Positions 14,507 to 20,300 of a stretch of 64,000 nt of DNA are shown piece after piece. Position numbers and translations under genes: made by a program. Under the pieces are notes generated by a model. That model was not told where the DNA came from and searched no databases. It saw only the letters and a program-made list of their open reading frames with translations. The stretch spans positions 1-64,000 of the forward strand of contig QHUZ01000020.1 in assembly GCA_003223395.1 (NCBI GenBank), given 5' to 3'. Origin of the DNA: Gemmatimonadota bacterium (GTDB lineage Bacteria > Gemmatimonadota > Gemmatimonadetes > Gemmatimonadales > GWC2-71-9). Within the stretch, counting starts at the first letter, position 1. The number at the start of each line of letters is the position of its first letter.

Positions 14507-15118
14507 ATGACCGAGAGCCCCAGCCGCGTCGAAGCCTTCAGCGACGGGGTGTTCGCGATCGCGATCACCCTGCTGATTCTCGAGATCCGTGTCCCGCATG
14601 GGGAGCACGGGCTGTGGGACGAGCTGCTGGCACTGTGGCCGTCGTACATCGCATTTCTGATGAGCTTCGTCGTCATCCTGATCATGTGGGTGAATCACCA
14701 CGAGCTGCTGCGCATGGCGCGGGGCGTCACGTACCCGTTCCTGTTCGCCAACGGGTTCCTGCTCCTGACGGTGACGTTCGTTCCGTTTCCCACCGCCGTG
14801 CTGGCGCAGAACCTCGCGACCGCCGAGGCCAGGACGGCCGTCGCGTTCTACTGTGCGACGTTCGTCGCGAATGCCCTGTGCTGGAACCTGTTGTTCGCGA
14901 CGATGGTCCGCGGCGGATTGCTGCGCGCGGAGGTGACCGCAGAGGCCGTGAGCAAGGTGCGTCGCGCCTATTATTTCGGTGTCCTGGTCTACGCGGCGGC
15001 GACCGCGCTGGCATTCATTCGGCCAGTGCTCGGCCTGCTCCTCAATGTCTCGCTCTGGGGCGTATGGATCACACTCGGATATCGCGCGGAAGCGTCTGCC
15101 TCGTCGTTGCGCTCCTAG
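14507..15118 (+). CDS. TMEM175-like (DUF1211) integral membrane protein, putative K+ channel
   Basis: RVEAFSDGVFAIAITLLILEIRVP signature. Confidence 0.87.
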   Translation: MTESPSRVEAFSDGVFAIAITLLILEIRVPHGEHGLWDELLALWPSYIAFLMSFVVILIMWVNHHELLRMARGVTYPFLFANGFLLLTVTFVPFPTAVLAQNLATAEARTAVAFYCATFVANALCWNLLFATMVRGGLLRAEVTAEAVSKVRRAYYFGVLVYAAATALAFIRPVLGLLLNVSLWGVWITLGYRAEASASSLRS

Positions 15119-15561
15119 GCGGGGCCTGCAAGCGGTCTGACGCAGACTTCGCGGCGATGCAGGCGCGCGGGGCGCACGTCATGGGCGTCGATCAGTACAC
15201 GTCGGCGCACGTCTTCGAGGACCTGCCCGACGGCGGCCGCGTCGTGCTCGAGCGCGACGACGCCGGCGACCGCGCCGCGATCGCCGCGATTCGCCTGCAC
15301 ATGCGCGAGATTGCCGCGTCGTTCCGCGCGGGCGACTTCACGAAACCCTTCCAGGTCCACGCGCAGACGGTGCCCGGCACGGCAGTGATGCGCGACCGGC
15401 GCGCCGCGATCAGCTACGTGCCGATCGATCGCCCGCGAGGAGGCGAAGTGCGAATCACGAGCGCCGATACCATTGCCGTAGTCGCGATCCACCAGTTTCT
15501 CGAATTTCAACGGCAGCAACATCGGGCGGCAGGGCACGAGGGTGCGCTCCACCACAACTGA
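15064..15561 (+). CDS. Hypothetical secreted lipoprotein
   Basis: MDHTRISRGSVCLVVALLGGACKRSD signal; overlaps preceding gene. Confidence 0.55.
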   Translation: MDHTRISRGSVCLVVALLGGACKRSDADFAAMQARGAHVMGVDQYTSAHVFEDLPDGGRVVLERDDAGDRAAIAAIRLHMREIAASFRAGDFTKPFQVHAQTVPGTAVMRDRRAAISYVPIDRPRGGEVRITSADTIAVVAIHQFLEFQRQQHRAAGHEGALHHN

Positions 15562-15583
15562 CCGTCACGGTAGGGTCGGGTCT

Positions 15584-15606
15584 GCCCCGCGGCATGGCCG
15601 CGGGGC
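15584..15606. repeat. Hairpin GCCCCGCGGC-ATG-GCCGCGGGGC
   Basis: 10-bp perfect stem, 3-nt loop, intergenic. Confidence 0.8.
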
Positions 15607-15622
15607 TGACAAATCCTGCAGC

Positions 15623-15706
15623 TCATTCCAACCATGGCTGTCAGATGCAGTCATTCCATCCATGGGGCTCAGACGCAGGCCATTCCATCCATGGCTGTAG
15701 CACGAT
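15623..15706. repeat. Three tandem 28-bp imperfect repeats (tcattccatccatggctgtcagacgcag-like)
   Basis: Copies 15623-15650, 15651-15678, 15679-15706; each contains CCATGG. Confidence 0.85.
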
Positions 15707-15909
15707 GATGCTAGAGGACACGCTTTGGCCTGTCCAATAACAACTACGACGATCAGACCCAATCCCATTCTCACCCCTCGAAGTCAACGACACCTCAACG
15801 CAACCGTTGCAGCGCCGCAACGGCCGCGGGGACGGGAGTATCGCATTCATGCGGCGGCTGTGCGCACAATGTTTGCAATCCCCTCCGGCATCCCTCCCTT
15901 GGAGTTGCA

Positions 15910-16779
15910 ATGCGACCGTATCTGTTCCCGGCGGTGTGCGCGGCAATACTCGCCGGCGCGTGTACGAATGCCGAGCGGACCACGAGTGTGGCGCCGGGTC
16001 CGCGGTTCGCCGCGACCGGCAACATTCCCGACCTCGATGGCCTGCCCGATCTCACCGTCGACGCGAAGAAACTGGCCCACTCCTGGCTCATTCGCATCGA
16101 AGATGCGAGCCAGTGCAGCGTCGTCGAAGGCGGGGTGAGCCCCGGCACCCACCGTGTGCTGCGCTTTACGGCCACGACCCCGAACATCGGCACGGCCGAC
16201 GTGTTCGTGGGCGATCCGCTGGAGCACGTCGCTGCCAACGACGGCATGTTCGAGTATGCGCTCTGCCACGATCACTACCACTTCCGGCACTATGCGACGT
16301 ACGAGCTGATCTCGGTGGAGACCGGCGCCGTCGTCCAGGCGGCGAAGCGCGGCTTCTGCATGGTGGACGTCACGCCGGCGGCGGGCGGCCCGCCCGGCGG
16401 CAAGCGCACCTACGACAGCTGTGGCACCCGGTCCTCACCCGGCTTTCAGGGCATCAGCGCCGGTTGGGCGGATTCCTACAATCGGGTCCTAGACGGGCAG
16501 TTCTTCGTGCTGGACGAGCCCGCGACGCCTGTTCCGCCGGGGGATTACGTCCTGCGCGTTACGGTGAATCCTCCGTTCCCGTGTGGTGACGGCGACGCCG
16601 CGCGGCCGCGCGACGCCGCGGGCTTCTGTCACATGTTCGCGGAGAGCGATTACACGAACAACGTGGGCGAGGCCGCCATCACGATTCCGAGCGACGTGAA
16701 AAATGCATCCGGCCCCGGCTTGTCGGAGGCGCTCTCACCCGAGGAATTAACCGCGATCATGACGAAGACGCAGCACTGA
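15910..16779 (+). CDS. Lysyl oxidase family protein (bacterial LOX homologue), lipoprotein
   Basis: CHDHYHFRHYATYELI (Cu-binding HxHxH), AAKRGFCMVD, QGISAGWADSYNRVLDGQFF, PPGDYVLRVTVNP, ESDYTNNV. Confidence 0.9.
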   Translation: MRPYLFPAVCAAILAGACTNAERTTSVAPGPRFAATGNIPDLDGLPDLTVDAKKLAHSWLIRIEDASQCSVVEGGVSPGTHRVLRFTATTPNIGTADVFVGDPLEHVAANDGMFEYALCHDHYHFRHYATYELISVETGAVVQAAKRGFCMVDVTPAAGGPPGGKRTYDSCGTRSSPGFQGISAGWADSYNRVLDGQFFVLDEPATPVPPGDYVLRVTVNPPFPCGDGDAARPRDAAGFCHMFAESDYTNNVGEAAITIPSDVKNASGPGLSEALSPEELTAIMTKTQH

Positions 16780-16824
16780 CACTACAGAATGTCGCGCGTC
16801 GCCCGACGCGTTGTCACGACACGA

Positions 16825-16868
16825 GGCCGGTGCCCAAGCACGCGAGTGCTGGCACCGGCCTTGCCTTT
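16825..16868 (+). terminator. Intrinsic terminator-like hairpin GGCCGGTGCC...GGCACCGGCC followed by ttgcctttt
   Basis: 10-bp stem, T-rich tail, downstream of LOX gene. Confidence 0.65.
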
Positions 16869-16931
16869 TCTCCCGTTCGGTTTCGTGTAGCGAGTTCGCC
16901 ACATGCACAGCGAAAGGAACGGGACATTCTC

Positions 16932-17558
16932 ATGAACACGGCGAGACATCTCTCGCTGGCACTGGGTGCAGTCGCGGCTGTGCTGATTGCCGCGGCGTGC
17001 CATGATGCCGCGAGTCCGCAAGACACCATCACCGCGGGCATCCTGCCCGGGCACAACAAGGGAGGGAGTCAATGCGCCGACTTCCGGCTCACCGGCGGCG
17101 GACGCGTAGACAAACCCGAGCCGGAAACGGGTAAGAGCCCGCCATCGTCGCACGACTTCGCGACGTTTGGATTCCAGGCACGTCCGGACGCAGCCTGCCC
17201 CTTCAACATGGCTGGCAGCGGCAACATCGAGTGGAACGAGCATCTGGAAACGCAGTACGGCGGCGGCTTCGCGTTTCACGGCCAGGTGACCCTGTTCTCG
17301 ACTCCCAACGACGGCACCGAAACCAACCCACAGTGCGGGCGTTTCGGCGGTTTCGGCCGGCTCAACCCGCATAACGGCCCCACCGAAGAGGACGTCTCCT
17401 TCGAGGTGAATCATGCCTGCGACGTGGATGAGCCGGGCGTCGGGCAAGATCACATCTACATGCGCATCGGCCCGCTCGCGGACGGCTCCATTTATTTCCG
17501 GCACAGCCTGCTGTCGGGCGGCAACATTCAATGGCACCGGTTAACCGGTAACAACTGA
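16932..17558 (+). CDS. Post-COAP-1 domain-like secreted lipoprotein
   Basis: Lipobox IAAAC; FRLTGGGRVDKP...HDFATFGFQARP...GNIEWNEHLETQYGG. Confidence 0.6.
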   Translation: MNTARHLSLALGAVAAVLIAAACHDAASPQDTITAGILPGHNKGGSQCADFRLTGGGRVDKPEPETGKSPPSSHDFATFGFQARPDAACPFNMAGSGNIEWNEHLETQYGGGFAFHGQVTLFSTPNDGTETNPQCGRFGGFGRLNPHNGPTEEDVSFEVNHACDVDEPGVGQDHIYMRIGPLADGSIYFRHSLLSGGNIQWHRLTGNN

Positions 17559-17573
17559 GGGAGGAGAACGACC

Positions 17574-18188
17574 ATGACTACGAAAATCCTATTGGCGCTC
17601 ACCCTCCTCGCGGGAGCGGTGCAGGCGCAGACCGTGACCGGAAAGGCATTCGGCACGTATGTGAATGCCGCCGGCGTCACGTCGCAGTCCCCAGTCGCGA
17701 CGCTGCCCTCGTCGGGTGGGATGGCGACCGGACAAGCAGATGCGTTTGGCGTAGCCGGTGCCGTCGATGCATCACGGCTGAACGCCGTGACGACCGGTGC
17801 TGTGGATAACAAGAAGTCGGGCGCGGAGAGCACGTCGGAGCTCGAGCAGGTGAGCGTCGCGGGCGGCGCCATCACGGCCGACGTGGTGACCGCGGTCGCC
17901 ACCGCCTACTTCGGTCAGTTCACCGGTGGTAGCGACGGCGAGGGCTCAGGATTCGTGAACCTCGTCGTGAACGGTGAAGCCATCACCACCGAAGTTGCTC
18001 CCAACACCCGCGTCGATTTGCCGGGCGTCGGGTATGCCATTCTCAACGAGCAGATCCAGACGGGGAACGGCGTGACGTCCTGGGGCATGACGGTGAACAT
18101 GATTCACGTCGTGTTACAGGACGCGCTGACGGGGCTCACGACGGGCGAGATTATCATCGGATCGGCGAGTAGCTCTGTAGCGAGATAG
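17574..18188 (+). CDS. Choice-of-anchor P-like secreted protein
   Basis: GGAITADVVTAVATA..., LVVNGEAI, PNTRVDLPGVGYAILNEQ, MIHVVLQDALTGLTTGEIIIGSA. Confidence 0.65.
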   Translation: MTTKILLALTLLAGAVQAQTVTGKAFGTYVNAAGVTSQSPVATLPSSGGMATGQADAFGVAGAVDASRLNAVTTGAVDNKKSGAESTSELEQVSVAGGAITADVVTAVATAYFGQFTGGSDGEGSGFVNLVVNGEAITTEVAPNTRVDLPGVGYAILNEQIQTGNGVTSWGMTVNMIHVVLQDALTGLTTGEIIIGSASSSVAR

Positions 18189-18194
18189 GCAGGC

Positions 18195-18272
18195 GACGGT
18201 AGGGGACGGTAAAAGACGGTAACGGACGGTAGAGGTGGTGTTACCTTTACCGTCTCTTACCGTCTCTTACCA
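18195..18272. repeat. 10-bp-phased GACGGTA direct repeats (x4) followed by inverted TACCGTC repeats
   Basis: GACGGTA at 18195, 18205, 18215, 18225; TACCGTC at 18248, 18258; TACC at 18268. Confidence 0.95.
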
Positions 18273-18288
18273 TTTTCGCTGAGGTTAC

Positions 18289-19077
18289 ATGCCCACCCCC
18301 GTCGTCTTCATCCACGGCCTCTGGCTCCACGCCGATTCCTGGAAACCGTGGATCGAGCTGTTTCGCGCCGCCGGCTTCGATCCGATCGCGCCAGGCTGGC
18401 CTGGCGAACCAGCGACCGTCGCCGAGGCGAACGCGCATCCCGAGCGTCTGGCCAACGTCGGCATCGATGAAGTCGTCACGCATTACGCGCAGATCATTCG
18501 CACGCTGCCGGAAAAACCCATCGTGATCGGCCATTCATTCGGCGGGCTGGTGGCGCAGAAGCTGCTCGGGATGGGGCTTGCGGCGGGCGCCATCGCGCTC
18601 GATCCGGCGCAGATCCGCGGCGTGTTGCCGCTGCCGCTGGCGCAGCTCAAGAGCGCGTTTCCAGTCCTCAGCAATCCCTTCAACTACAAGAAAGCGATCT
18701 CGCAGACGCCGAAGCAGTTCTACTTCGGCTTCGGGAATGCCGTGTCCGAGCAGGAATCGAACGCGCTGCACGCGAAGTACCACATTCCCGCACCGGGCAA
18801 GCCTTTGTTTCAGGCCGCGCTCGCAAACTTCTTGCCGAACACGCCCGCGAAGGTGAACACGAAAGCTGCGCGCGGACCGCTGCTGATCACGGGAGGCGGC
18901 AAGGACCATACGGTGCCGGAGGTCGTGTCGCGGTCTGCGTACAAACTGTATCGCAAGTCGCCCAGCGTGACCGAGTACAAGGTGTTCCCCGACCGTGGCC
19001 ATTCGCTCACGGTCGACAGCGGATGGAATGAAGTGGCGAACGCGTCCCTAACGTGGCTCAAGAGCAAGGGGCTGTAG
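18289..19077 (+). CDS. Alpha/beta hydrolase
   Basis: VVFIHGLWLHADSW; VIGHSFGGLVAQ nucleophile elbow; PDRGHSLTVD. Confidence 0.88.
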   Translation: MPTPVVFIHGLWLHADSWKPWIELFRAAGFDPIAPGWPGEPATVAEANAHPERLANVGIDEVVTHYAQIIRTLPEKPIVIGHSFGGLVAQKLLGMGLAAGAIALDPAQIRGVLPLPLAQLKSAFPVLSNPFNYKKAISQTPKQFYFGFGNAVSEQESNALHAKYHIPAPGKPLFQAALANFLPNTPAKVNTKAARGPLLITGGGKDHTVPEVVSRSAYKLYRKSPSVTEYKVFPDRGHSLTVDSGWNEVANASLTWLKSKGL

Positions 19078-20300
19078 CCAGTCTGCTGTTGGTGTTGACG
19101 CTGGCGGTGGCGGCATGCCCACCGCCACCACCAGCTCTTGTCCCCACGCCCTACCAGCCCAGCGACATGTTCGACAGTGCGCTCGCGATCTTGAGCCGTA
19201 AGTACTACGACACAGCATTCGTTCATGAGCATCTCGACTCGCTGCGCGCCGAATTTCGAACCGCCGCAGTCGCTGCGGGCGACGACTCGCTCGAGCGCGA
19301 GGTGATTCGCCGGCTGCTCGAGCGTTTGCCTGCCTCACATCTCGCCCTCTTATCCGGACAGGAGCGCGACGACTTGTGGTATGATCTTGCGGGTGAAAGG
19401 CATCTGATGTTCGGCATGCAGCTCATCGAATTGAACGGCCGTTATTTCGCTTCGATGGTCTTGACCGGCGGCCCGGCGTATGCCGCCGGAATTCGCGACG
19501 GGGACGAGATCGCCGCCATCGACAGCTTGCCTCCCGCCCGCAGCCCCCATCGCGATTGGCGCGAGGACGACATCTATCTTCCCGACGAGCGCGATCCGCC
19601 TACGTATGGCCTGCGCGCGCGCTCCGCTCCGGCGCTCGCGCTGCGCGTCCTGCGCGCGCCCGGTGGTGACACCGCGACAGTCCGCCTCGCTCCCGGTTTC
19701 TATTCTGCCCTCGATGCGACCCGAGCCAGCATCCGCATCGTAACCCGCGACAGCATTCGGGTTGGCTACATCCGCTGGTGGTACATCCATTGGAAGGACC
19801 TGGTCGCCGGATTCCGGCAGGCGTTGCGAGGTCCGCTTGCGACGAGTCAGGCCCTGGTCCTTGATCTGCGTGGGCGTGGCGGCAGCGAATCGACGGTGCG
19901 GGATATCCTGCGGCTGCTCGCTCCAGGCTCCAGGCGGCGATTCCGCGGACCGATCGTGGCGCTGATCGATCGGCAGACCCGAAGCGCGAAAGAAGAGCTG
20001 GCCTACGAGCTCCGCGCGCAGGGACTCGCTCGGCTGGTGGGAGAGCCAACGGCCGGTGCGTTCCTCCCGATGGATTTCGCGAATTTGGGCGGCGGAACGG
20101 TGCTGGCGTTCCCCCTGCGCGGCAAAGTGCCGAACCGGTACACTCCCCTGATCGAAGGACATCCTGTGCAGCCGGATGTCGCGGCGCCGTGGGTCGGTCC
20201 ATACGCCGGTGGACAGGATCTGCTGATGGAAGCGGGGATCGCGGAAGCGGTTCGGCTCGTGCGGGGGGGAGGCGGGCTCGACTCTGTCAGGAATCGGTAG
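19053..20300 (+). CDS. S41 family peptidase with PDZ domain, lipoprotein
   Basis: GGPAYAAGIRDGDEIAAIDSL (PDZ); ALVLDLRGRGG; TRSAKEELAY catalytic region; start uncertain. Confidence 0.8.
   Translation: MAQEQGAVASLLLVLTLAVAACPPPPPALVPTPYQPSDMFDSALAILSRKYYDTAFVHEHLDSLRAEFRTAAVAAGDDSLEREVIRRLLERLPASHLALLSGQERDDLWYDLAGERHLMFGMQLIELNGRYFASMVLTGGPAYAAGIRDGDEIAAIDSLPPARSPHRDWREDDIYLPDERDPPTYGLRARSAPALALRVLRAPGGDTATVRLAPGFYSALDATRASIRIVTRDSIRVGYIRWWYIHWKDLVAGFRQALRGPLATSQALVLDLRGRGGSESTVRDILRLLAPGSRRRFRGPIVALIDRQTRSAKEELAYELRAQGLARLVGEPTAGAFLPMDFANLGGGTVLAFPLRGKVPNRYTPLIEGHPVQPDVAAPWVGPYAGGQDLLMEAGIAEAVRLVRGGGGLDSVRNR

Follow-up and report, generated by a model that had tools for sequence, protein, structure and literature searches.

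Which role does a lysyl oxidase play in a bacterium, and on what would it act? The question is raised by a gene at positions 15910–16779 on the forward strand of a 64,000-nucleotide stretch of DNA from a Gemmatimonadota bacterium, to which we refer as the window. Animal relatives of its product (LOX) build the extracellular matrix, where they cross-link collagen, whereas our search brought up no bacterial lysyl oxidase whose physiological substrate has been reported. The window LOX, a compact single-domain protein with a predicted envelope anchor, and its soluble-looking relatives form a clean pair for addressing questions of site of action and substrate. Our analysis makes it likely that the gene encodes a genuine lysyl oxidase, probably active as a copper amine oxidase, and that this protein is exported and held in the envelope by an N-terminal lipid.

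Family membership and residues of the active site

The gene consists of a single open frame of 289 codons terminated by a stop, whose product contains a signal peptide followed by a LOX domain alone. It matches the Pfam profile PF01186 (Lysyl_oxidase) with 67.4 bits (E 1.8e-18), above the curated cut-off of 20.4 bits, and human LOXL2 (5ze3) is its sole sequence match in a phmmer search of the PDB (E 3.3e-10). LOXL2 is also recovered by Foldseek (E 2.6e-11, with a moderate TMq of 0.53) from an AlphaFold2 model based on a 49-row alignment (pLDDT 85.6, pTM 0.81), with no further fold match in the PDB and none in a viral fold library at E ≤ 0.001. The NCBIfam profiles gave no match to a LOX model. 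Membership in the lysyl oxidase family is thus secure, and the initial annotation, which had recognized a homologue of this family and proposed the Pfam search as a check, agrees with the profile, sequence and fold searches, which returned no other significant match. The low dN/dS of about 0.06 in a comparison with the congener G194 (176 codons) identifies LOX as a constrained gene under strong purifying selection.

The residues on which catalysis depends in the family are retained under this constraint. The copper ligands H120, H122 and H124 of the motif HDHYH (16267–16281), directly preceded by C119, align with H626, H628 and H630 of LOXL2, and Lys146 (16345–16347) and Tyr190 (16477–16479) with K653 and Y689, the precursors of the lysine tyrosylquinone cofactor (LTQ). 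All five are located at precisely the codons to which they had been assigned initially, and they are invariant in 46 close and 25 distant homologues, counting only sequences with letters at the five columns. The copper site and both cofactor residues, initially described as apparently retained, are therefore present throughout the family members compared, and the motifs PPGDYVLRVTVNP and ESDYTNN, which had been named as well, are both found in the translation. The latter (16642–16662) contributes E245, D247, N250 and N251 to the equivalent of the LOXL2 calcium site, with E245 and D247 corresponding to E722 and D724. This site also includes D47 (16048–16050), which, from a shared PDL motif and the LOXL2 sequence, we take to be the counterpart of D549. 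Many close homologues (such as L008 and L012) carry an insert of the form DPNGDGxxxDxDG directly before the copper site that resembles a calcium-binding loop; the window protein has only the shorter AANDG in its place.

The pattern of cysteines sets the protein apart from its human relative. C119, C150 and C171 align with LOXL2 C625, C657 and C673, and C69 probably corresponds to C573, whereas C685 and C695 are replaced by W186 and G196, so that likely about two of the five LOXL2 disulfides are kept. Since neither SRCR nor propeptide regions are found either, the protein falls outside the animal-type LOX/LOXL group, which is defined by these regions and by five conserved disulfides. Confined to its close clade is a pair of cysteines that precedes the ESDYTNN loop (the column of residue 231 and C240), the first of which is displaced in the window protein to C225/C226 of the sequence PFPCGDG, placing an extra C226/C240 pair near the calcium-site loop. 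LTQ is not built by AlphaFold. The distance between the lysine and the tyrosine in a model, which had been suggested initially as grounds for rejecting the assignment, turns out to be an unsafe guide since both are 16.6 Å apart in the crystal structure of the human LOXL2 precursor itself (PMC9694262).

A point that counts against activity concerns the absence of residues equivalent to LOXL2 H623 and H652, whose mutation lowers LTQ to less than 50% (PMC9694262); thus two of the six histidines that are conserved in human LOX proteins and affect LTQ yield are missing. The first histidine of the copper 'talon' is, according to a 2015 survey by Grau-Bove et al. (PMC4448552), absent from bacterial LOX generally, and its equivalent in human LOX, H289, is described there as dispensable for copper binding and activity. 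The prokaryotic proteins of that survey resemble the window protein in this respect and in their lone LOX domain with signal peptide, the histidine triad and the LTQ lysine and tyrosine. Lysyl oxidases with conserved copper and LTQ residues are reported there for Gemmatimonadetes, and an archaeal homologue is active (PMC6452851). The window gene therefore belongs to a known family, within which it is ordinary, in line with the initial statement that the family is not new. The consulted part of the survey lists the phylum but contains no mention of lipid anchoring or of the clade-specific cysteine pair. Our work adds these two features, the first as a phylum-linked lipobox-like cysteine, together with the loss of some animal disulfides, the placement in a soil-bacterial clade, the patchy occurrence of the gene and its location in a variable segment of about 2.7 kb in the window genus.

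Predicted lipid anchor and distribution of the family

The N-terminus (15910–15963) reads as a signal peptide ending in a lipobox-like A-G-A-C, with Cys18 (codon 15961–15963) as predicted site of lipidation. These assignments of export and lipobox reflect a reading of motifs, and the lipobox of the window protein is weak at position -3. The description of the protein as lipid-anchored is thus the loosest point of the initial annotation, but all other Gemmatimonadota homologues with a readable N-terminus carry a lipobox-like cysteine about 20–25 residues from the start, mostly in the pattern L/V/I/F-A/V/S/T-A/T-C. In contrast, LOX proteins from Acidobacteriota and other soil bacteria (such as L035 and L046), which share about 47–56% identity, the same catalytic residues and the cysteine pair, contain a Sec-type N-terminus without lipobox cysteine near the mature start. 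In the close Acidobacteriota homologues the N-termini are hydrophobic and mostly devoid of a cysteine at this position, with isolated matches to the lipobox pattern within or near the hydrophobic stretch in L033, L045 and L053. Proteins of the Acidobacteriota type without this cysteine are therefore probably soluble. Because lipobox-like cysteines are also kept in a Gemmatimonadota branch that groups with Acidobacteriota (L036, L043 and L051), the sequences suggest that the anchor follows the phylum of the host.

The source genome contains one LOX gene, and its occurrence is patchy, with LOX present in 21 of 395 genomes of the phylum and in 13 of 102 of the family. A scan of species genomes has identified 60 LOX loci, and the close clade of 39 rows, a soil-bacterial group in which the window LOX is placed, includes besides the window 19 rows from Gemmatimonadota, 14 from Acidobacteriota and one or two each from Myxococcota, Eisenbacteria, Chloroflexota and Pseudomonadota. 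Several changes of phylum label are required within this clade, and transfer between phyla is likely, although many rows are metagenome bins, where misbinned contigs could account for single odd labels (with L061 and L064, which show end branches of zero length, as possible examples). We have also considered the tree as a source of information on the origin of animal LOX and discarded it for this purpose, since the human LOXL2 fragment joins long branches only and its position is thus uninformative. Tandem LOX genes are found in some Gemmatimonadota (L009/L024 and L014/L023, in G379 and G311), and Sorangium proteins (L079–L082) contain a second, partial LOX-like domain.

The locus and its variable segment

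Upstream of LOX, a gene for a small lipoprotein ends at 15561, and the next gene downstream starts at 16932. About 40 bp past the LOX stop, a strong hairpin on the same strand (16822–16863, -35.8 kcal/mol, z -6.8) is succeeded by the T-rich tail TTGCCTTTTC (up to 16870). These features would likely serve as intrinsic terminator, and LOX thus probably forms its own transcription unit; a promoter scan returned none on the LOX strand. The downstream gene (16932–17558, forward strand) encodes a secreted lipoprotein with a weak match to post-COAP-1 (NF041523, 20.7 bits, below cut-off), and 15 bp further begins a gene for a choice-of-anchor P (COAP) family protein (17574–18188, forward strand; NF040603, 146.7 bits).

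LOX and these two genes reside in a segment of about 2.7 kb (15562–18288) that three congeners lack. In G002, G395 and G255 the genes on either side of it, for the lipoprotein and an alpha/beta-hydrolase, are present and about 66–722 bp apart; in G266, the left flanking lipoprotein is absent as well as the segment. In G002 and G395, the site is filled by 722 bp encoding a Y1 transposase, and one end of this filler matches window positions 15714–15758 (80%, E 2e-5), which points to a history of mobile elements at the LOX site. The element (L105:1706-2427 and L106:1114-1835) carries an IS200-like/RAYT-type Y1 transposase gene and flanking REP-like hairpins, and a 45-bp remnant of one of its ends is found upstream of LOX at 15714–15758. 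In a comparison of the window with G194 (L109), the post-COAP-1-like and COAP genes (16932–18188) show a synonymous divergence of only 0.03 and 0.11, compared to 0.50 in LOX and 0.42 in the hydrolase gene, which suggests a probable recent recombination, with later exchange of the downstream pair. LOX and the pair thus do not share a recent history, which argues against a tightly coupled cassette.

Other features of the region include three direct copies of CATTCCATCCATGG at a spacing of 28–29 bp upstream of LOX (15618–15698), a long near-perfect hairpin of GACGGTA-type repeats between the COAP and hydrolase genes (18186–18290, -51.8 kcal/mol), and a gene for a TMEM175-family potassium channel (14507–15118, 98 bits). 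An S41-peptidase/PDZ gene adjoining the hydrolase (19053–20300) is apparently missing at the same place in G002, G395, G255 and G266, and its region appears to constitute a second variable segment.

Proposed function and competing explanations

The closest experimental guide to function is HTU-LOX of the archaeon Haloterrigena turkmenica, which, by its description, shares with the window protein the family, the catalytic residues and the export from the cell, and which differs in its archaeal origin, its demonstrated activity and its relaxed specificity. When refolded with Cu2+, it oxidizes peptidyl lysine as well as many small amines, and 3-aminopropionitrile inhibits it (PMC6452851). This breadth underlies our reading of the window protein as an envelope-anchored Cu/LTQ oxidase of primary amines and peptidyl lysine. 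By analogy to animal and archaeal proteins, Cu2+ bound to H120, H122 and H124 would, after export, oxidize Tyr190, which would then cross-link to Lys146 to form LTQ, and the mature enzyme would convert primary amines, whether free or in the lysine side chains of surface proteins, together with O2 into aldehyde, NH3 and H2O2. Its biological use is most likely dispensable and niche-specific, and at the cell surface the enzyme would either oxidize available amines or introduce aldehyde cross-links into proteins of the envelope or a biofilm. Counting against this proposal, we found no assay of a Gemmatimonadota LOX in the literature, LOX is absent from most relatives, and the clustering of open reading frames from 38 homologous loci and the window has, among the matches listed, revealed no partner beyond Gemmatimonadota synteny.

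An active LOX might alternatively serve a catabolic or defensive role, acting on small amines or amine-bearing antibiotics as a surface oxidase of low specificity rather than as cross-linker, a possibility that we take seriously without favoring it. The Haloterrigena enzyme oxidizes taurine, glycine, aminoglycosides and polymyxin (PMC6452851), and a solitary gene with its own terminator, patchy occurrence and no conserved structural-protein partner would suit such a role, but no amine-metabolism genes were recognized among the neighbors scanned, and membrane anchoring by itself does not favor it over cross-linking. Collagen-like proteins were considered as substrate and rejected, with Collagen matches in 3 of 13 LOX genomes compared to 20 of 89 others in the family and none in the source genome in a search with the Pfam profile. 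The adjacent post-COAP-1-like lipoprotein and COAP protein appear unlikely as substrates or partners that LOX would cross-link at the surface, even though the three genes share the variable segment. Genes of the three kinds also recur in another genus (G145, L039), within about 5 kb and with order and strand unchanged, but an opposite-strand TonB-receptor gene intervenes there. COAP is found in 10 of 13 LOX genomes compared to 15 of 89 others in the family (p 3e-5), but this co-occurrence disappears within the genera carrying these genes (10 of 13 compared to 15 of 20, p 1.0). Most LOX genes are unlinked to COAP, the terminator-like hairpin lies between LOX and the pair, the synonymous divergence of LOX and the post-COAP-1-like gene differs about 18-fold, and both proteins of the window contain few lysines. 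There is no statistical support for either collagen-like proteins or the COAP pair as partners of LOX.

The more general proposal of a surface cross-linking module, in which a lipid-anchored LOX would oxidize lysines of secreted partners such as the neighboring COAP and post-COAP-1 proteins, is the least probable of the explanations weighed here; if true, it would imply an extracellular layer cross-linked through aldehydes, in analogy to the matrix that LOX cross-links in animals. Hardly more probable is a catalytically dead surface protein that has merely retained the LOX fold. The missing equivalents of H623 and H652 and the reduced number of disulfides would be in line with such a protein, but the invariance of the five catalytic residues across the clade, the strong purifying selection and the activity of the archaeal homologue all argue for an enzyme.
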